64,000 bases of DNA, from assembly GCF_029227915.1 (NCBI RefSeq), contig NC_079887.1:8494001-8558000 (forward strand). Reading direction: 5' to 3'. Source of the stretch: Hydractinia symbiolongicarpus. Its lineage: Eukaryota > Cnidaria > Hydrozoa > Anthoathecata > Hydractiniidae. The position numbers and the translations under genes were made by a program. Every line of letters starts with the position of its first letter. The stretch's first letter is position 1. Under the pieces are notes generated by a model. It ran no database searches and was not told the DNA's origin. It saw only the letters and a list, made by a program, of their open reading frames with translations. Below are positions 107-30,200 of this stretch, one piece after another.

Positions 107-13276
<13,170 letters not shown>

Positions 13277-13504: not shown

Positions 13505-13510
13505 ATAATC
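13505..13510. repeat. target-site duplication, left copy (ATAATC)
   Basis: ATAATC directly precedes the left terminus TATGGAACGCC. The identical hexamer follows the right terminus at 18498-18503. Confidence 0.9.
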
Positions 13511-14047
13511 TATGGAACGCCAAGGCTGCCTTATTCGATGATTTCATTCGGTCATAAAACACTATTTGTCGCTAATTGTATTCGATTTTGTTAAAATTCA
13601 TTCGATTTTGTAAAAATTCATTCGATTATGCGCTAAATTCATTCGATTATGCGCTAAGTTCATTCGATTATGCGCTGAATTCATTCGATTATGCGATGAA
13701 TTCATTCGATTATGCGATGAATTCATTCGATTATGCGATGAATTCATTTGATTATGCGCTGTTTGCATGTGATAAATTATTCGATGCGCTGAATTCATGC
13801 GCTAAATTATTCGATGCGCTGTTTGCATGCGCTAAATTATTCGATGCGCTGTTTGCATGCGCTAAATTATTCGATGCGCTGTTTGCATGCGCTAAATTAT
13901 TCGATGCGCTGAATTCATGCGCTAAATTATTCGATGCGCTGTTTGCATGCGATAAATTATTCGATGCGCTGAATTCATGCGCTAAATTATTCGATGCGCT
14001 GTTTGCATGCGATAAATTATTCGATAGTTTTGGCGCCTCAATCAAAA
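13511..14047. repeat. left terminal inverted repeat with tandem units
   Basis: 537 bp matching the reverse complement of 17901-18497. After about 90 bp of unique terminal sequence come roughly 21-bp units (GAATTCATTCGATTATGCGAT type, about 13612-13758), then nine 30-bp units (about 13760-14029) alternating GTTTGC and GAATTC variants of xxxxxxATGCGCTAAATTATTCGATGCGCT. The 163-residue open frame across it is a by-product of units divisible by three. Confidence 0.93.
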
Positions 14048-14068
14048 CTCAAGGATTACAAAATTAAT

Positions 14069-15436
14069 ATGGCTGACGAAAGAACACGAGCTATATTAAA
14101 GAAACTTGGATTGAAACACCTTATTTTGAAGTTTAGTGAAGAAAATATAACCGCTGATTTGATACCAAAGCTTTCTCTAAAGCATTTCGAAAGCTTAGGT
14201 GTAACAGATAATGGAGTTATAATGAACTTGAGGGTAAAATTTTGCAGCTTTGGTGGAATTAAACCACAAAAGTTAAAGTGGGAAAATGGAGGAGCTCCAA
14301 AATTCCTAATACCTGAAGAAGTCCTACAAAACCTACTCAATGACGGCTGTCTTATTTCGGAGATCAGCAATATCTTATGCGTTTCAGAAAGAACAATTTA
14401 TAGAAGAATGGAAGAGTATGGGCTTAAAAAGCATAACTTTACAGAAATGTCTAATGAAGAGTGTGATTCAATTCTGAGCACTGTGACTCAAGAGTTTCCT
14501 AATTGTGGCGAAGTTATGTTACGAGAACTGTTAAGGGAACGTGGGATACGAATTCAAAGGCAAGTGCTAAGAGAAAGTTTGCAGAGAATTGATAAAGATG
14601 GTATTCAGTTTAGAAGCAAAAGGAGGCTGCACCGTCGAATCTATAACGTGCAAGGGCCAAACCACTTGTGGCATATAGACACAAACCACAAATTGGTGCG
14701 CTGGTATTTTATAACTACTGGGATCGTTGATGGGTTTAGCCGGTTACCTGTCGGTTTATTTTGCACCGATAACAATAAATCGGACACTATTCTTCAATGT
14801 TTTCAATTCGCAGTCGGCGAATATGGTCTTCCAAGCAGATTGAGGTGTGACAAAGGGAAGGAAAATGTTCTCGTAGCAGATTACATGCTAGAAAAGCGTG
14901 GAACTGACAGGCGAAGTGTGATAGCAGGTAAAAGTACACACAACCAAAGAGTGGAAAGACTTTGGAGAGACATTTTTAGTGGAGTGTTGTCTTATTTCTA
15001 TAACCTGTTTTACTTTATGGAAGACAAAGGTATTTTAGATGCGACAAATGGATTGCATTTGTCTGCATTGCATTATATATATATGCCCCTAATTGTTGCT
15101 AAGCTTGAATGGTGGAGACAAGCATGGTCTACTCACCGATTGAGAACAGTCAACTCTTCTCCCATCAGATTGTGGGTTTCTGGACAGATGACCAATCCTG
15201 TGGGTATTGCCCCTCATGAGGTTGATCAACTTTATGGAGTAGAAGGCTATTTATCCACTGAAGAGGAAGAACCTGAGGAGAATGAGAGACCAATCTTTGT
15301 TTTTCATCAGCAGATAAGTCAAAATTGTTTTCAAGAGCTTTCAGAAACTATAACGGATGATTCTAAACATGAGAACAGTGGAATTAACAGCTATTTACGG
15401 GCTCTGGATATAATAGAAAAATATATCCAAGAATAA
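14069..15436 (+). CDS. SAM-HTH-DDE integrase-type transposase
   Basis: Predicted transposase of 455 residues, intact, starting at ATG 14069 just inside the left inverted repeat; an in-frame ATG at 13994 lies within the repeat array and is less likely. Residues about 8-60 read as a SAM domain (LKKLGL...[12 protein letters not shown]). Residues about 84-120 form a helix-turn-helix ([22 protein letters not shown]), probably for binding the ends. Residues about 195-330 are an rve integrase core with D204 (HLWHIDTN), D261 ([10 protein letters not shown]) and E296 ([10 protein letters not shown]), a DD34E spacing. The acidic C-terminal tail is unassigned. A fused or spliced product with the downstream HECT gene is possible but not shown. 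Confidence 0.9.
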
Positions 15437-15498
15437 TAATCTGACATTGAAAGTTGTGAATTTTGGTGTATTTTGATTGATTTATTTTTTATGAGTAA

Positions 15499-17500
15499 TT
15501 TTTTGGATACATTCTCACTTCGCTTAATGTGAACTGGAAAATTAACTCATCTCAATGTTTAAATTGTTTTGAGGAGTTTTGTCTCGAAGAACTGAGACAA
15601 CATACTGAGTTATGCATGCCATACTATGAATCTAGTGATGATTCAGAAGTTGCATTACCCCCTGTGTTATCAAATGAGGTGACCCATGAAGAGGAAAACA
15701 ATGAAATAACTGAAACTGAATCTGCTTTTCGAATAAGCTATGAGTACATTCCAGAAACAAGAGATCAAAAGCAGGATAATGCTAATAACAACGAAGAATT
15801 TGATCTCAATGCAAACATTAACAACATCATCAGTTATTGCATTGATAATCAAGTGAATTCACCAGTCGAGATATTACGGTATATGCAGCAGAAGTTAGTT
15901 CAAGGTCGAAGTTTAGAAATAACTGATATTGCGGTTCATGATGACAGACCAACAAATTTTATCATGGTTGATCGGGCCAATCTTATTGAAACTGGTTTAG
16001 AAGAGATACGGGAACTGCAAAATAAGTTGATTTGTTTATCTGTGCAGTTTTATGGTGAGGTAGGAAAGAGTATTATTTTTATCTTCATGTTTAATATTAA
16101 GATTGTTTTTTTGTTCATCAGTTAATTTGTTTATTTTACCAGACATGTTTGTGTAATCATTATATTATATTATTTATCATTTATATTATTATATTTTTAG
16201 TTGGCAGAAGATTATGGAGGGCCAAGAAAAGAGTTTTTTCAACAGATAATAAGAGAAATCAAAGAAAAATACTTTGATTGTGAAATAAACTTGTTTCCTT
16301 TAAGTGATTATTATGATATTGGAATAGTTTTTGGTACGTAATTACACTCAGCGTTATACCACTGTGAGAAATTGAAAAAAGGAACACAAAAACATTTCTT
16401 GTTGTTGTGAGCTTCTTAAAAACTAAAAAAAAATCTAAAAAGATAAATATTCTATGAAAATGAGTGTTTATTCTTATTTTTTTAGGCTTGAGTTTGCTTC
16501 AGAATGGCCCATTTCCACAGTTTTTGGAAGAAGATGACCTGCAAAAAATATTTTTTAACGAAGAACCTGGCAAATTCAATGAACTCCGAAGAGCTTTCAA
16601 GGATCTTGGAATTTTCCAAGTTTGTATTATATATTTTTGGATGTTTCTCTAAAAGAAGCTTTTTCTCATAAAGCTTTCTCTTAACATACCGTATTTCCTC
16701 TTATCCGTCTGTTTTCTAATACCTAAATTCAGCATTTTAAGGTTTATTAGAGGGGGCGTTAATAGAGGAAATACGGTAAGTAAATACATAAGGAAAAGAT
16801 CTGTTGAGCATTGTATTTACATCTACACTCAATGAGTTTATTTATCATTATAATTAGTTATCATTGCTTTCAGATTGTGGAAGCCTTTCCTATCATGCTA
16901 CACCTTTTCCGACCCAATCCTAATGCTACTTTCACTTTTAAAAAACTGGTCAACTTGCTTCAGCCAAAATGGGCAGCTGAAGGGTCAAACGAACATTACA
17001 GGCAGAAAAAGCTTTATCCGTTATTAATGAAATATTTGAGGCAAGCACATGGTAAGTGTCAAATTTAAATTTCCACGCGCTCGCTCCGCTTTTCTATAAA
17101 CTAAATAGCCAAACATTTTTTATTTTGTATGAGCAGAGTTTCACAAAGGAAGCTGGCTTCTGCTACCTTAAGGGAAGAAATTATGTGCGGAAGAAATATC
17201 TATATATAAACTTTCTATTTTTGTTACTGTTTAGGTGGAAAACGTTCGGGTGTTTCGCTTCCCGATGTACTAAGGTTTGTCACTGGAAGTGAAGAAGAGC
17301 CTTTGTTAGGATTTGCACTGGCCCCTTCGATAAAATTTGTTCCGGTGATGTAAGAAGGTCGATTTCTTCCGACAAGTAACACTTGCATTAATCAATTGCA
17401 ATTACCAATGGAAAGTAATGCTATTTCCCTTCCAGACGAAAACGCTCTGTTCGGTTTATATGACTTAGCCTTTTCTAGTCGATTTTTTGGACAAATTTAA
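15499..17500 (+). pseudogene. UBZ-like zinc finger plus HECT E3 ligase gene, interrupted
   Basis: Second gene of the transposon. Exons: about 15499-16059, 16201-16333, 16486-16619, 16874-17051, 17235-17500; all joins keep frame. The first exon opens with CLNCFEEF...LRQHTELC, a C-x2-C-x11-H-x3-C finger like ubiquitin-binding UBZ modules, then an acidic stretch. The HECT domain begins SVQFYGE-LAEDYGGPRKEFF and ends with the C-lobe motif FLPTSNTCINQLQLP, whose cysteine codon (17384-17386) would form the ubiquitin thioester. An in-frame TAA at 17351-17353 truncates it 11 codons earlier; the frame then runs on to TAA 17498-17500. No ATG precedes the finger in frame, so an upstream exon, possibly spliced from the transposase transcript, may supply the start. 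AATAAA lies at 17757. Closest recalled relatives are G2E3-like HECT proteins. Confidence 0.8.
16687..16778. mobile_element. 92-bp MITE with TACCGTATTTCCTC ends
   Basis: Short inverted ends TACCGTATTTCCTC and GAGGAAATACGGTA surround a small core, with possible TA target duplication. It sits in the HECT-gene intron between 16619 and 16874, so it is a nested insertion. Confidence 0.7.
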
Positions 17501-17653
17501 AAGTCGTCGACAGTTTTATTATTTATGCCTATTAGGAACTTAACTCTTGTGATTAAATGCAAACATTTATGCTTTCTTTCGTTACCTTTTCACTGATTCA
17601 AAACTTATTTTATAATTGGTAGTTGTTTACTTGTAAACTTCGTTTTGTTTACG

Positions 17654-17675
17654 GTGTCCCTTTCCAAAGGGACAC
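17654..17675. other. perfect small hairpin in transposon 3' region
   Basis: GTGTCCCTTT-CC-AAAGGGACAC is a 10-bp perfect stem with a 2-nt loop, between the HECT reading frame and the right inverted repeat. Its role is unknown; it may be part of the transcript 3' UTR. Confidence 0.5.
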
Positions 17676-17900
17676 TTAATTTTTGTTTTATTCAGAGAGA
17701 ATATTTTTTATATTTTAGCTCTTATCGTTTGTATTCATTTTCTTATATTATAGGAGAATAAATGTTCCGTAGTTTCTTCAGAAATTTTCGATGTACTTTG
17801 CAAGATTAGACTGACGCTTAATCGTAACACTATGGTAAAGTGTTCCCGCGAAATTGTTAATTTTCTAAGAAATTCAGAGGTTACCATTTTTTAATTTTAA

Positions 17901-18497
17901 TTTTGATTGAGGCGCCAAAACTATCGAATAATTTATCGCATGCAAACAGCGCATCGAATAATTTAGCGCATGAATTCAGCGCATCGAATAATTTATCGCA
18001 TGCAAACAGCGCATCGAATAATTTAGCGCATGAATTCAGCGCATCGAATAATTTATCGCATGCAAACAGCGCATCGAATAATTTAGCGCATGAATTCAGC
18101 GCATCGAATAATTTAGCGCATGCGAACAGCGCATCGAATAATTTAGCGCATGCAAACAGCGCATCGAATAATTTAGCGCATGCAAACAGCGCATCGAATA
18201 ATTTAGCGCATGAATTCAGCGCATCGAATAATTTATCACATGCAAACAGCGCATAATCGAATGAATTCATCGCATAATCGAATGAATTCATCGCATAATC
18301 GAATGAATTCATCGCATAATCGAATGAATTCAGCGCATAATCGAATGAACTTAGCGCATAATCGAATGAATTTAGCGCATAATCGAATGAATTTTTACAA
18401 AATCGAATGAATTTTAACAAAATCGAATACAATTAGCGACAAATAGTGTTTTATGACCGAATGAAATCATCGAATAAGGCAGCCTTGGCGTTCCATA
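17901..18497. repeat. right terminal inverted repeat with tandem units
   Basis: 597 bp, the inverted partner of 13511-14047. It has the same 21-bp and 30-bp arrays but two additional 30-bp units (one GAATTC/GTTTGC pair), which accounts for the 60-bp length difference. Base differences between the arms are few. Confidence 0.93.
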
Positions 18498-18503
18498 ATA
18501 ATC
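18498..18503. repeat. target-site duplication, right copy (ATAATC)
   Basis: Identical to 13505-13510 and abuts the right terminus ending GGCGTTCCATA. Confidence 0.9.
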
Positions 18504-19554: not shown

Positions 19555-20970
19555 CCGATCTTTCGCGACGCCTTGGCGACGTTGCCCATTGACTGATATT
19601 AATTACCTCCTTTCCAGTTTTTTTATCCTTGCATCCCTTCTTTGTGGCCTTCTGCGTGAACGATGTTATGCTGTTTACTACCCAGGACAGAACTTGAGTG
19701 TTGATGAGTCTCTCGTACTTTTCAAAGGTCGTTTGAAGTTCTAACAGTACATCCGGACTAAACGAGCAAGGTTAGGAATCAAATTTTATGAACTTTATAC
19801 CTCCAGTGGAATAACTCTCGATTTTTTAGTGTACTGTGGAAAAGGTATGTTCTATGATGACGATGGCAATGAAGGGATGCCAACGACTGAACGTATTCCT
19901 GCATCATTGATCGTCTCGTAGCTTTAAAAATATCACATCTTATTTACTGATAACTTCTACACCAGTCCGAGTCTCGCGGAATACTTTTTAAAGCATGGCA
20001 CCCATCTTTGCGGAACAGTTAGGAGTAATCGTAAACATTTCTGCAAGGATATCGTCGATGTCGCGTTGGAAAAAGGAGAAGCATCTTTTTACAGATCAAC
20101 CAAGTGTAGAGACTTGATAGTTCCTGGGGCAAAGCCCAGAGGAAGACCGAGAAAGACTTGGCAGGAGGTTATAAGGACAGACTTGATACAGAGGAAGTTG
20201 AGTTTAGATCTAACACAGTCTAGATCAGATTGGGAGAGGGTCATTAATATACCCCGTCCAACCCATGCTAGCATGGAAAGCGGACGTTAAGCCGAGGATG
20301 ATGATGATGATGATGAACTAACAACAACAAAATAGTTGTTTCAAAATACAGAGCTGCAAAGGACAAATCTGGTAACAAACCAAAAATTGTTTTTTTGCTA
20401 TCAACATGTCATTCAGCCATAATTTCAGAAACTGGTCAAGCAAACAAAGATGGTGTAGCGATCCGCAAACCCACTATGATAAAATCGTACAACAGCCACA
20501 TGGGAGGTGTTGACATGGTCGATCAGCAGCTGCATAACATAGATGTTCTCAGAAAACACTACAAGTGGTACAGAAAGGTTGCTTTCAGATTGATTATACA
20601 AGCAGTATTGATTTCCCACAAACTTTTTCAGTTTCGTACCGGGAACGAAAAAAAGACCTTCTTGGAATTCCTACAGGATGTTATTGCAAGTTTAGCCAAG
20701 CAGAATGAGCTACCACAGAACTATGTCCCTGATGATGGTAGAGAGAGACTTACTGGTATACATTTTCCATCAGTACGAGTTGCAGACGAAGATGCAAAAG
20801 ACAAGAGGCCGTCCAAAAATTGCCGTGTTTGTTATGAGAAAAATATGCGCAGCGATAAAGGCTGTCCGCTGAAGACTGTCTATATTTGTGAAAAGTGTCC
20901 ATCACAGCCAGGACGTCACTCTGACAAATGCTTTGAGATCTATCATACTCAAAAGCATTTTGGTGAATAA
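19555..20970 (+). pseudogene. piggyBac-type transposase pseudogene (PGBD-like)
   Basis: A decayed DDD transposase of the piggyBac superfamily. Readable blocks in order are YPGQNLSVDESLVLFKGRLKF, a stop, then QYIRTKRAR and ITLDFLVYCGKG, further stops or shifts near 19920, then TDNFYTSPSLAEYFLKHGTHLCG and ALEKGEASFYRST. A retrotransposon insertion (about 20104-20317) follows. The frame resumes with NKIVVSKYRAAKDKSGNKPK, MIKSYNSHMGGVDMVDQQ, HYKWYRKVAFRLI and a C-terminal cysteine-rich finger (CRVC...YICEKCPSQPGRHSDKCFEIYH). The N-terminal third is missing or unreadable. Stops, shifts and the insertion make it non-functional. Confidence 0.88.
20104..20317 (+). mobile_element. 3' tail of a non-LTR retrotransposon
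   Basis: An open frame reading RDLIVPGAKPRGRPRKTWQ, VIRTDLIQRKLSLDL and SRSDWERVI, then a stop and a GATGAT microsatellite tail, is the typical C-terminal end of LINE-type reverse transcriptase ORFs. It interrupts the piggyBac reading frame between FYRST and NKIVVSKY. It is severely 5'-truncated, and the exact target duplication is unclear. Confidence 0.75.
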
Positions 20971-24866: not shown

Positions 24867-26768
24867 TCACGCGGAAAGTCCGATCCAGTATGATCGTCCA
24901 CCTGGATTGTGTATAGCAGTTGCTTGCGGCGATGTGAAGCACCATTCATACCAAACTTTCGTCTTCGCAACTTTTCGCCAAAAATGTAAACACACTTTCC
25001 CACCGGCTGGGCAATATATCGGATTTTCGATGGGAAAGAAGGCTGGAAACCAACTGAACATACCAGGCGAATGGGTGTTCGGGAGTATACTTAGGGTAAC
25101 GTCCTTATACAAAACCATATCGAAGAAGCCGGCCACGCCGTGTATCATGGAAGCTTTGTCAACGTTAAACTCGAGTTTGACGTAACGTTCGTTATTAATC
25201 GGCTCTTCATAGTTGGGATGAACGAAAGTAAACACATCTTTTGGCTCGTCCAAGTAATTCACGTTTTGTAGTCGAACAACGTACGGACATTCGAAGTGCG
25301 CTTCTGGCAATTTACCTACTTCTCGACACGCTGCTACTTCTCCGTGTAGCTTTGGTGACGACAGAGGAGTGGCGTATGACGTGTATTTACAAGGAATGCT
25401 AATCCCGCCCTCTTTTAAAAACTTTTGAGCACCATCTAAACATTCCGGTGACAGTTCGTTATCGCTAAATGAACCCAGGAGTTCACTAACAAGAATGTCG
25501 GCTTTTTCCGGCGCCTCGTACAGACGCATGTCACACGACACAACAGTGACAGCACCTTTCCATTCCTCCTCGTTTAACGTTTCCAAAGTAACGATTGCGT
25601 TAGGATTCTTCTCCACAGCGTACATTTTTACTTTTCGTTGAGCCTCCTTTGCAGCTTTAAGCGAGGCTCGCACAAGAGGACCTCTACCTGCACCGACAAC
25701 CATGATAACCGTGATAACTTCATCAGCTTTCTCGTCTGGAACACGGTCTAATAATGCTTTATAAACAGCATTTTGGTACTCAGCATATTTCACAGGATCC
25801 TTTTCAAATATCTCGTACGTTTGAGACTCCAGATTTTCACTTAGTGGTTGAAGCGGAGTTTGAAGATAATCTTCATAACCTTTTGCGAACTTTTCAACGG
25901 AATCGTAACCCTGCGTGGCGTAGAGGTGATTTAAATAATGATAATAGTACATGATGTTCTTGTGTAAAACGGCCCCAGAAACGATGAATTGTACATTCAT
26001 TTTGGAAAATTTTTGAAAAACTAACTGCGTTTCTTTAGGGAGTACAGGATAACCTTTCTTATTTGTGAGAAACATATTCGTTGGAATAACCACTGCTTTC
26101 AGTGGTTCACCTAACCATCGTTTTATGACGTTATCATAATTCACTACTTTACTGTTAAGTTCTAACACGGGATTGAGCTTTCGATGGTTATTACAAAGAC
26201 AGCGCATCTCGTTCCACCATTCCCAAGGATCAGTAGCTCGCTGATCTTTGGGTTGTAAGTCCGCCAAATTTGAGTTCTTATTTATCAACTCATTATCGCA
26301 CACGTCATACGGCGACTTTAGTGGCACATTAACCCATATTTGCTGGATGGTCGAATTACGTAAAGTATGATTAACGATTTGGCTTAGTTGCATGTTGTTC
26401 GGGCTTTTCAATTTGATCATAGCAGCCGGTAAACTGAGATGTATGGAAAAGGCTAATTCTTGCTTGATTGCCAGTATGGAGTTCTTGCGAGCAACCTCGC
26501 ATCTAGAATCTACGTTAATCCAAGGAGATATTTTACCAACCACTAAGCTGCTCCAATCCGAACCGGGCAACAACAAGTCTGTTCGGGTGAACGCTCCCGG
26601 TCGCTTAGGACCATCAGTTGATCCCAATTCACGTTTATATCGTGGATGTGCTATTGGCACGGCGATGAAGTCATAACCAGACCCGGACGCCAATTGCAAA
26701 CAATCTCGGATGTCAGGAACATACGAGAAGTCTCGTCCACAGGATACATGTGTGGTTTTTTCTGACAT
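24867..26768 (-). CDS. PRMT5: protein arginine methyltransferase 5, intronless coding region
   Basis: Type II arginine methyltransferase that, with MEP50, makes symmetric dimethylarginine on Sm proteins and histones. A complete uninterrupted frame of 633 residues (human 637). The N-terminal TIM-barrel region reads GRDFSYVPDIRDCL, HPRYKRELG and TRTDLLLPGSDW. The catalytic part shows YEIFEKDPVKYAEYQNAVY (with the phenylalanine that favours symmetric methylation), SAM-binding VVGAGRGPLVRASL near residue 360, and the double-E loop SELLGSFSDNELSPECLDG. A C-terminal beta-barrel follows to WIGLSA. The start is the only N-terminal ATG that fits the family. A polypyrimidine-AG acceptor (exon from 26784) lies 16 bases upstream, suggesting a 5' UTR intron although the coding region has none. 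Neighbour CCT2 lies upstream on the same strand. Confidence 0.97.
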   Translation of the reverse strand: MSEKTTHVSCGRDFSYVPDIRDCLQLASGSGYDFIAVPIAHPRYKRELGSTDGPKRPGAFTRTDLLLPGSDWSSLVVGKISPWINVDSRCEVARKNSILAIKQELAFSIHLSLPAAMIKLKSPNNMQLSQIVNHTLRNSTIQQIWVNVPLKSPYDVCDNELINKNSNLADLQPKDQRATDPWEWWNEMRCLCNNHRKLNPVLELNSKVVNYDNVIKRWLGEPLKAVVIPTNMFLTNKKGYPVLPKETQLVFQKFSKMNVQFIVSGAVLHKNIMYYYHYLNHLYATQGYDSVEKFAKGYEDYLQTPLQPLSENLESQTYEIFEKDPVKYAEYQNAVYKALLDRVPDEKADEVITVIMVVGAGRGPLVRASLKAAKEAQRKVKMYAVEKNPNAIVTLETLNEEEWKGAVTVVSCDMRLYEAPEKADILVSELLGSFSDNELSPECLDGAQKFLKEGGISIPCKYTSYATPLSSPKLHGEVAACREVGKLPEAHFECPYVVRLQNVNYLDEPKDVFTFVHPNYEEPINNERYVKLEFNVDKASMIHGVAGFFDMVLYKDVTLSILPNTHSPGMFSWFPAFFPIENPIYCPAGGKVCLHFWRKVAKTKVWYEWCFTSPQATAIHNPGGRSYWIGLSA

Positions 26769-26784
26769 TTTGTTTTTGTTCTAT

Positions 26785-27288: not shown

Positions 27289-30200
27289 TTAATGTCCATG
27301 GTCCTGTCTGCGAGGTCTTGGGGGAGCTTTGATGATATCGTCTACACGTAGGATCATTTCGGCAGCTTCTGCAGCAGCTGTCAGCACTCTGTATTTCACC
27401 TTGAACGATTCAGTTATACCTAACTCTGCCATATCGCCAATCAATCCTTTGTTCATGTCTAAGCCAGCTGTCGACTGTCCAGTGGTATGAGCGGCGCGAA
27501 GTTGAGAAATTAATTCGGAACTATCGTAACCAGCATTGTCGGCGATGATCGTCGGCAGCTGTCGGAGAGCTGCTGCAAACGACTCTACGGCCATTGCCTC
27601 TTTACCAGGTGTTTCTTGGGCGAGTTTGTTGACTGCGTTCGCCATTAACATTTCCGAACACCCTCCTCCGTAAACAATGCGTGTTTCCTTAACGGTCTGC
27701 TGAAGAACACACAAAGCATCGTGAAGAGATCGTTCAGCCTCTTCAAGAATTTGTTGGGTGGCACCTCTTAACACAACACTGCAAGCTTCGCCCATATCAA
27801 CGCCGGAGAAGTGTATTAATTTATCTTCGCCAATGATGACCTCCTCGATAAGTTTACATTTACCTAACTTCACCAGTTCAGGATTATGAAACGTAGACAC
27901 GATTTCTCCTCCAGTCACTAGAGCTAATCTTTCAACACCTTCAAAATCAGCATGTTCGATGGCCATAACACCAGCGTCAGCGAATAATTGTTCAGGATAG
28001 TTGTAAATCAACTGCCGGTTAATGAAACAGGTTATACCGTGATTTAAGATCAAGTTCACTTTATCCTTCATCTTCTCCTTTTCTGCAAGTTCTAACTCGG
28101 CTACTTTCGCAACCGAATCGACGCGAACTCGCGATCCGAATACTTTAATTTTATCAGCGTCCATAGCGGTGTTTGCAATTAAAATGGTAGCGTTTTCAAT
28201 CCTCTTTGGTTGATTATTCCCCACTTTTTTATCAAGTAAAAATCCTTCGTCTAAGAAAGAGTCGTCTAAACTGCCGCCAAGTTTCTTGATAATCTGAATA
28301 GCATCGAGGTTCCCGCTACCTTTTAGTCGCAACACGGCGTTTACGGCCAGTTCTGCAAAATGTTCTCGATGCTGTACTAAGATTTTTGAGCTCAACGTCG
28401 TCCGCGCAATATTCATTAAATCTTCGCGAAACTGATTAGGATTACTGCTGTTGTCTTTCGCAAAACCCTCTAACGCACTTGCAGCCGCCTTGTTAGCTTT
28501 TCTCCAACCGTATATGATAGTCTGTGGATGGATCTTTTGAGCGATGAGCTTTTCAGCCTCGCGAAGGAGTTCTGAAGCCAAAACAGCAACGCTGGTGGTT
28601 CCATCTCCAACCTGTAAATACAGCATCTCCATAAATACTCTCGTTTTCATAAACGTCGGGTAAAATGCTTATTATGGTTCGCAAAACAAAGCTTGTTTTA
28701 CTCATGTTCAAAGCTTTAATACACCAATTTCTAAACAAAGCAGACGAGTGGAACTTTGCACTAATTGAGTATCAAATGATATCCTAATAACACAGAAAAG
28801 AAGAATGTGTCAATTTGAAACATTTTAATGTGTAGGCTTTATTATATAATTCACACATCACCGGTAGTATGTTCACTCAGTATTAGCACCTTATTTTAAT
28901 GACAAAAACTCCAGACATTCCCCTTTCAATCTACATATTTTCGGCTAGTATCTTAAGCTAAAATGTAGATAATTTTTAAGAACCAATCCTTGTCAATAAT
29001 TCGAAAAAAATAGATATAACATTTGAATCTAAAACTCCTGATATTTTCCTGTCAATTACGTTGTTAATTTAAGAACCTTTACCTCCGCATCCTGCACTTT
29101 AGAAATATCGACCAGCACTTTAGCTGCCGGATTGTCAACTCCCACAGACCTCAAGATGGTTGCGCCATCATTTGTCACCTCGATTTTTCCATGTTCTTGC
29201 ATAGACACCAAAATCTTGTCCATACCTTTTGGACCAAGTGTGGTCTTCACAAGATCGCCTATTGCTATGGCACCAACGAAGGATGACATACGAGCTGTCT
29301 CTGAACGCTCCTCCTCAGCTCCTAAATACAGAAAGATTAAACAAATTAACAAACCGACTTCTTGACAGGGTCACCTAAATTTTTTGAAATAAAATTTCCA
29401 GGTTTGTTTAAATTTCACTTTTATATATATATATATTAAAAAACAATTTAACAAAATCTGGTGAACTAGATTTCTATATAGAGTATATTAATAACAAAGT
29501 TTAAATAATGTTTTGTGACATTTGACTGAGGTAAAAATAATAAAAAATTTCTTTGTACACCACAGAGGGGCGGCTGTTTTTTTGTAGGGAACAAGCGTAG
29601 TGCAAGTTCTAGCAATGTTCTCATCTAAAATTTTCAGTTAAACTGTGTAATTACTTGTGAGACACACAATATATAAAATGTATATTAGATTTACAGAAAG
29701 TTAAACAACAACTAATAATGATATTCAATATTAACATATACAATTTTATTGCATACCAAATTGTGTATATAAAGTTATTGGGAAATTGAAAACAAAATAA
29801 GAGGCCTGGGATGAGCAAACAAGTGTCATTTTGGCAAAAAAAATTCATGTTAATCAATCAACTTTATAATACCTATGCATTGATAAAGTTTAAATGCACA
29901 ATCCTCATATATGAACAACCTACTGTTCGTGTTTAGACAGTATAACTAATTACAATAGTGTTGGATGGGGTTTTTGTTCTGTTTGGTGCAGATCTGATGC
30001 ATTGGTACAGCGTTGCGTTGCTGTTGTGTTTAAAGGTACTGTCCGATTAAAAATCAACTAAAATTTTGACAAAAAATTCTTATTTGGAACTAATTTCTAT
30101 AAAATAATTATATAATTATTTGTTTTCTTTCCTAAAACCAACTGAACAACATCTCATTCTTGTTTACAAAAAAGCATGCGGTCTCTCGCTTCGATTGTTT

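Follow-up and report, generated by a model that had tools for sequence, protein, structure and literature searches.

The genome of Hydractinia symbiolongicarpus carries a two-gene DNA transposon whose complete form, about 6.1 kb long, encodes a SAM-HTH-DD34E transposase together with a second protein made up of a SAM domain, a C2HC finger and a HECT domain. The window, by which we mean the whole 64,000-nucleotide stretch analysed (contig C13, 8494001-8558000), holds a recently inserted, internally deleted copy that has kept the transposase and the ends and has lost a working ligase gene. Because the pair recurs in further families and at further loci, we regard the ligase as a recurrent second gene of IS3EU-like elements. 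Our preferred reading, to which we give a probability of roughly 0.5, is that the ligase is a retained second gene of the transposon, whose product would meet the transposase by way of SAM domains and ubiquitinate its complex or nearby proteins.

The copy in the window

The window element lies at 13511-18497 and has TATGG..CCATA ends, inverted repeats of 515 bp with 2 mismatches, and an exact 6-bp duplication, ATAATC, on its flanks (Table 1). Together with the intact transposase, these features bear out the sequence-only reading, which had described a young DDE transposon. That reading also gave the element a HECT gene of its own, with a complete C-lobe motif. The gene is indeed carried by the family, but it is dead in this copy: a deletion of 1155 bp has taken away the start and the SAM domain, an in-frame stop lies ahead of the catalytic cysteine codon, and no open reading frame runs through that cysteine. 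Deletion and stop together rule out a working ligase here.

TA..TA termini, a 6-bp target-site duplication and an integrase-type DDE transposase were all found, and the IS3EU placement of the sequence-only reading is supported by the ends, the duplication length and the integrase core. In the accessible text of PMC10045372, IS3EU elements are described with TA..TA ends and usually 6-bp duplications, and that of PMC12730594 gives the ends of the fungal TET-carrying IS3EU as TAYGG..CCRTA. The TATGG..CCATA ends occur in families 2, 4 and 5 as well as in the window copy; family 3 has TATGG at one end and TATGA at the other.

Table 1. Features of the window element (positions in the window) and of the further families that hold a ligase relative (length, or positions in the locus).
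Feature	Position or length	Strand	Remarks
Target-site duplication ATAATC, left	13505-13510		read from the sequence
Left terminal inverted repeat, TATGG end	13511-14052	+	subterminal 21-bp array 13580-13758 and 30-bp array 13754-14025
Transposase gene, single exon, 455 aa, intact	14069-15436	+	SAM-like N-terminus, HTH, DD34E integrase core
Junction of 1155-bp internal deletion, 2 bp filler	15551-15554		window copy (L009) against L019; ligase start, SAM domain and linker gone
Passenger exon 1 remnant	15554-16059	+	C2HC finger, acidic linker, start of HECT N-lobe
Passenger exon 2	16201-16333	+	HECT N-lobe
Passenger exon 3	16486-16619	+	HECT N-lobe
Passenger exon 4	16874-17051	+	HECT N-lobe
Passenger exon 5	17235-17500	+	HECT C-lobe; in-frame stop 17352-17354, catalytic Cys codon 17385-17387
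Right terminal inverted repeat, CCATA end	17896-18497	-	30-bp array 17923-18254, 21-bp array 18250-18413
Target-site duplication ATAATC, right	18498-18503		read from the sequence
Family 2	6.5 kb		duplications CACATC and CAAAAA; CUE 1e-5, nearly full HECT 5.6e-14
Family 3 (L034)	622-4089		duplication GATATT; degenerate copy with stops
Family 4 (L033)	1321-4093		duplication AATCTT; degenerate copy with stops
Family 5 (C11 family)	5695 bp		duplication CACCCC; HECT 5.9e-18

Copies of the element in the genome

A search with 190 bp of the element end gave 84 genome matches, and of the 20 loci fetched, 15 are two-ended copies. The other five (L016, L025, L026, L027 and L028) lack one or both ends when 4 mismatches are allowed in 30 bp; L016 (C8:8225911) has a whole transposase all the same. 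Exact 6-bp duplications flank 13 of the 15 copies, while the duplication of L010 matches at 5 of 6 positions and that of L022 is 5 bp. The transposase is whole in eight copies and the ligase gene in six, and these six (L011, L012, L013, L019, L020 and L021) have both genes intact. They measure 6.05-6.39 kb, are spread over contigs C4, C6, C10 and C13, and have no internal stops and all splice sites. The search by end sequence had been proposed as a check on the sequence-only reading, and its outcome agrees with that reading. Copies without the gene had been named as the observation that would speak against it; such copies do exist, the window copy in part being one, but they are shortened versions of the longer HECT-bearing element. 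Outside its missing 1155 bp, the window copy differs from L019 at 5 of 4985 aligned bases. Compared with the old copy L024, dN/dS is 0.87 and 0.83 for the two genes, and a signal of constraint is absent in either.

The ligase protein

Read from L019, the whole passenger protein has 648 aa encoded in five exons and consists, in order, of a SAM domain, a conserved middle region, a C2HC finger and a compact HECT domain. Pfam recognises HECT at 9.4e-9, over the cut-off, and SAM_1 at 0.00017, just under it. A protein search with the passenger, in which 7998 candidates were scored, returned 37 proteins at E 0.001 or better, with relatives in Clytia (48% identity), Dendronephthya, Ptychodera, Saccostrea, Mytilus, Argopecten and Acropora. 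The full-length relatives of the window gene have the HECT fold, and in an alignment of ten proteins, the passenger included, the catalytic cysteine (C611) and the zinc ligands are nearly invariant. For relatives in viral contigs, 15 and 45 pattern matches were obtained, of which none was confirmed. In other species, two ligase matches (P0012 and P0017) and two transposase matches (P0042 and P0101) lie on contigs of the same lengths, 749193 and 468268 bases, which suggests shared scaffolds; these four were left out of the linkage counts.

The predicted structure of the passenger has a mean pLDDT of 73, and its residues 341-644 match HECT domains of solved structure. This HECT domain has 304 residues, against 388 in UBE3C and 374 in Smurf1, and the span between the conserved blocks is 109 profile positions, against 179 residues in E6AP. 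Read from these lengths, the N-lobe seems to be about 70-80 residues short, apparently at the part that binds the E2, and ligase activity of the passenger therefore cannot be assumed.

The ligase-transposase pair in other families

We searched the genome with the transposase, the window-family ligase and the family-2 ligase. The counts that follow are lower bounds, taken from the best-scored candidates: 93 of 626 for the transposase, 68 of 134 for the window-family ligase, 69 of 104 for the family-2 ligase and 129 of 198 in a further search. Outside the window family, at least 17 of 23 distinct ligase loci found with the window-family ligase have a transposase match no more than 6 kb away, one of the 17 being an 80-90% relative of the window family. 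Using both ligase searches, a piece of the passenger lies within 6 kb of all 18 family-2 transposase loci, where membership was set by identity and frame and several of the loci match by a passenger fragment only. A passenger match also lies within 6 kb of at least 16 of 58 other transposase loci (15 of 58 without C9:26494733, which merely adjoins a family-2 copy), where 0.08 of 58 would be expected by chance if loci were evenly scattered. Two more loci, C11:10546265 and C5:27429002 (L042), have a HECT neighbour and fall outside the 16, the latter recognised by eye with a Pfam HECT value of only 0.027. At the remaining 40 of the 58, many of them fragments, no passenger was found among the best-scored candidates by any search or reading.

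In four diverged transposase families, a ligase relative is enclosed by the family's own inverted repeats and 6-bp duplications (Table 1). Their gene orders differ, and a HECT C-lobe could be identified in two of these families. The degenerate copies read for families 3 and 4 showed the SAM domain, the middle region and the beginning of the HECT N-lobe (1.6e-4 and 7.5e-7); no C-lobe was recognised in them. The two genes lie on opposite strands at all 16 loci; in the window family and family 2 they lie on the same strand, in opposite order. Inverted repeats and a 6-bp duplication are also present in family 6 (C4:4694932), where neither HECT nor SAM was found. It was rejected as a HECT-free control, since C11:10546265, another locus with a 32% transposase match, has a HECT match 1.8 kb away; family 6 may thus represent loss in one copy. 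The sequence-only reading had noted neither this recurrence of the pair nor the SAM domain that heads the ligase.

SAM domains and a proposed mechanism

Profiles of the two SAM domains were used to scan six-frame translations of one element from each family, and the window copy was scanned as well. In families 1 and 3 the ligase and the transposase each carry a SAM domain; families 2 and 5 gave no match as good as E 0.1, the best being 0.13. Family 4 has SAM in the ligase only, the N-terminus of its transposase being eroded, and the window copy retains only the SAM of the transposase. This correlated presence and absence may have its source in one evolutionary event. The SAM of tankyrase, a polymer-forming domain, heads the PDB SAM matches of both profiles. 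An hhalign comparison of ligase SAM with transposase SAM gave 98.5%, which does not prove pairing, since SAM domains are generally alike. The VIA-align structure matches are confined to residues 340-644 in the ligase and 195-378 in the transposase, and the absence of a SAM chain from them carries no weight. At the start of the last helix, GDR is present in eight of eight ligase SAMs and in none of 17 transposase SAMs, an asymmetry that would fit a one-way contact.

From the SAM pairing and the GDR difference we infer that the ligase would be brought to the transposase complex, perhaps through contact of the last-helix end of its SAM with the mid-loop face of the SAM in the transposase. Once there, it would ubiquitinate the complex or proteins kept in its vicinity. 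The element would most likely gain from controlled clearance of the stable transposase-DNA complex once strand transfer is complete, or from regulation of the transposase level; next would come the marking of nearby chromatin or silencing factors. The window copy, if it required a ligase, could be supplied by its intact sisters. A broader version, which we put forward tentatively and with less confidence, is that a large group of animal IS3EU elements has HECT as its core second gene, SAM-coupled in one branch. It would be a ubiquitin system encoded by the transposon that binds to the element's own transposase and marks the transposition complex, and it would have been kept together with the transposase while the gene order was reshuffled.

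Alternative explanations

A competing and rather unlikely reading, close to the role suggested by the sequence-only reading, is that the ligase serves counter-defence, degrading or marking silencing or repair proteins of the host, and that its SAM recruits host SAM proteins instead of the transposase. The passenger SAM does resemble those of the host scaffold proteins ANKS3, ANKS6, BICC1 and tankyrase, and fungal IS3EU elements carry, as cargo, genes for a TET/JBP dioxygenase and an alpha-kinase, of which TET/JBP is thought to serve escape from silencing (PMC12730594, accessible text). The paired presence and absence of SAM, seen in few families, fits a partner inside the element better.

It is improbable that a host HECT gene was simply caught between the ends and carried along without benefit. 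The near-neutral dN/dS values to L024 would agree with such passive carriage, as would the clean ends and duplications of the window copy and the other shortened copies that have lost the ligase. These shortened copies, however, can move with protein made in trans, and therefore their existence decides nothing; moreover, a ligase relative recurs in four further bounded families and beside many transposase loci, and relatives in cnidarians, molluscs and a hemichordate have kept their active-site residues. That the HECT exons belong to a host gene and became attached to the transposon through an insertion or a misassembly, a concern raised with the sequence-only reading and favoured by the gene's exon-intron structure and nothing beyond, is refuted by six intact copies with the same pair, the same ends and their own duplications at different sites on four contigs, which need neither event.

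Significance and comparison with known systems

With a HECT ligase that recurs next to the transposase in several families, one can test how a transposon governs what becomes of its transposase complex, or its silencing. Cargo that could act on regulation has been described for fungal IS3EU in the accessible text of PMC12730594; here a HECT ligase is found in one animal genome. HECT genes that occur in many copies and are listed as ordinary predicted proteins in cnidarian, and perhaps mollusc, annotations may belong to transposons. No report of IS3EU and HECT together was found in the literature searched, which did not extend to subscription papers or Repbase, nor did titles and abstracts among the matches listed report a HECT gene or G2E3 in a DNA transposon; the word HECT is absent from the accessible text of PMC10045372 and PMC12730594. 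Unclassified fish repeats match G2E3 (PMC5638112, accessible text) and are perhaps the same kind of element, unrecognised.

With the IS3EU superfamily (IS3EU/GingerRoot) the window element has its ends, duplication length and DDE core in common, and its termini fit those given for fungal IS3EU in the accessible text of PMC12730594; the HECT gene sets the Hydractinia element apart, and may be annotated in Repbase. The fungal IS3EU with TET/JBP and alpha-kinase genes and Styx of Zymoseptoria also carry further genes beside the transposase, according to the accessible text of PMC12730594 and PMC10853768, but these genes are different and the hosts are fungi rather than an animal.

UBE3C, UBR5, AREL1 and E6AP share the HECT fold and the cysteine motif with the passenger, which differs from them in having a SAM domain and a C2HC finger in front, a seemingly shorter N-lobe, and a coding gene that lies in a transposon. 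RAG1 carries a RING ubiquitin-ligase module, and RAG1-RAG2 and the RAG-like transposons are likewise a two-gene lineage linked to such a module; the RING, however, lies within the transposase-derived protein, not in a separate SAM-HECT protein, and the origin is Transib, not IS3EU. In bacterial transpososomes, disassembly is driven by a protease, and tagging of the complex by the ligase would be the animal counterpart that we propose.

Structural variation among IS3EU-like copies

Nine of the 15 two-ended copies of the window element's family are shortened; in one of these loci, L014, the ligase gene is almost complete and the transposase is absent. The subterminal arrays, which possibly serve as transposase-binding arrays, differ in unit number among copies by 60-150 bp, and their 21-bp unit corresponds to two helical turns. 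In transposase family 6, the C4:4692000 locus (L037) holds an IS3EU-like element with ends TACGGAGCG and the target-site duplication GCTGAG, in which a 215-aa frame (4542-5186 of the locus) occupies the place of a recognisable HECT. This frame gave no confident match in Pfam, the top one being ubiquitin at 0.074.

Features in the window and additional HECT frames in the genome
Feature	Position	Strand	Remark
Subterminal satellite-like arrays, 21-bp and 30-bp units	window 13580-14025 and 17923-18413		
DDE_Tnp_1_7/zf-Tnp_2 transposase, fragment	window 20317-20967	+	piggyBac-type
Host genes, PRMT5 and TCP-1 chaperonin subunit	window 24867-26777 and 27289-28665	both -	past the element's right end
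Additional HECT frames	C3:20124212, C13:6775336, C9:18646117 and similar places		genome search

Other HECT frames in Hydractinia

Several more HECT frames of about 310 aa, each with a Pfam span of 35-294, are present in the genome among the matches listed (129 of 198 candidates scored). Near those checked, none of the listed matches to the window family's transposase (93 of 626 candidates scored) was found, and these frames may belong to other transposon families. The gene table of the Hydractinia sex-locus study includes a HECT domain-containing protein, HyS0116.7 (PMC9926710).
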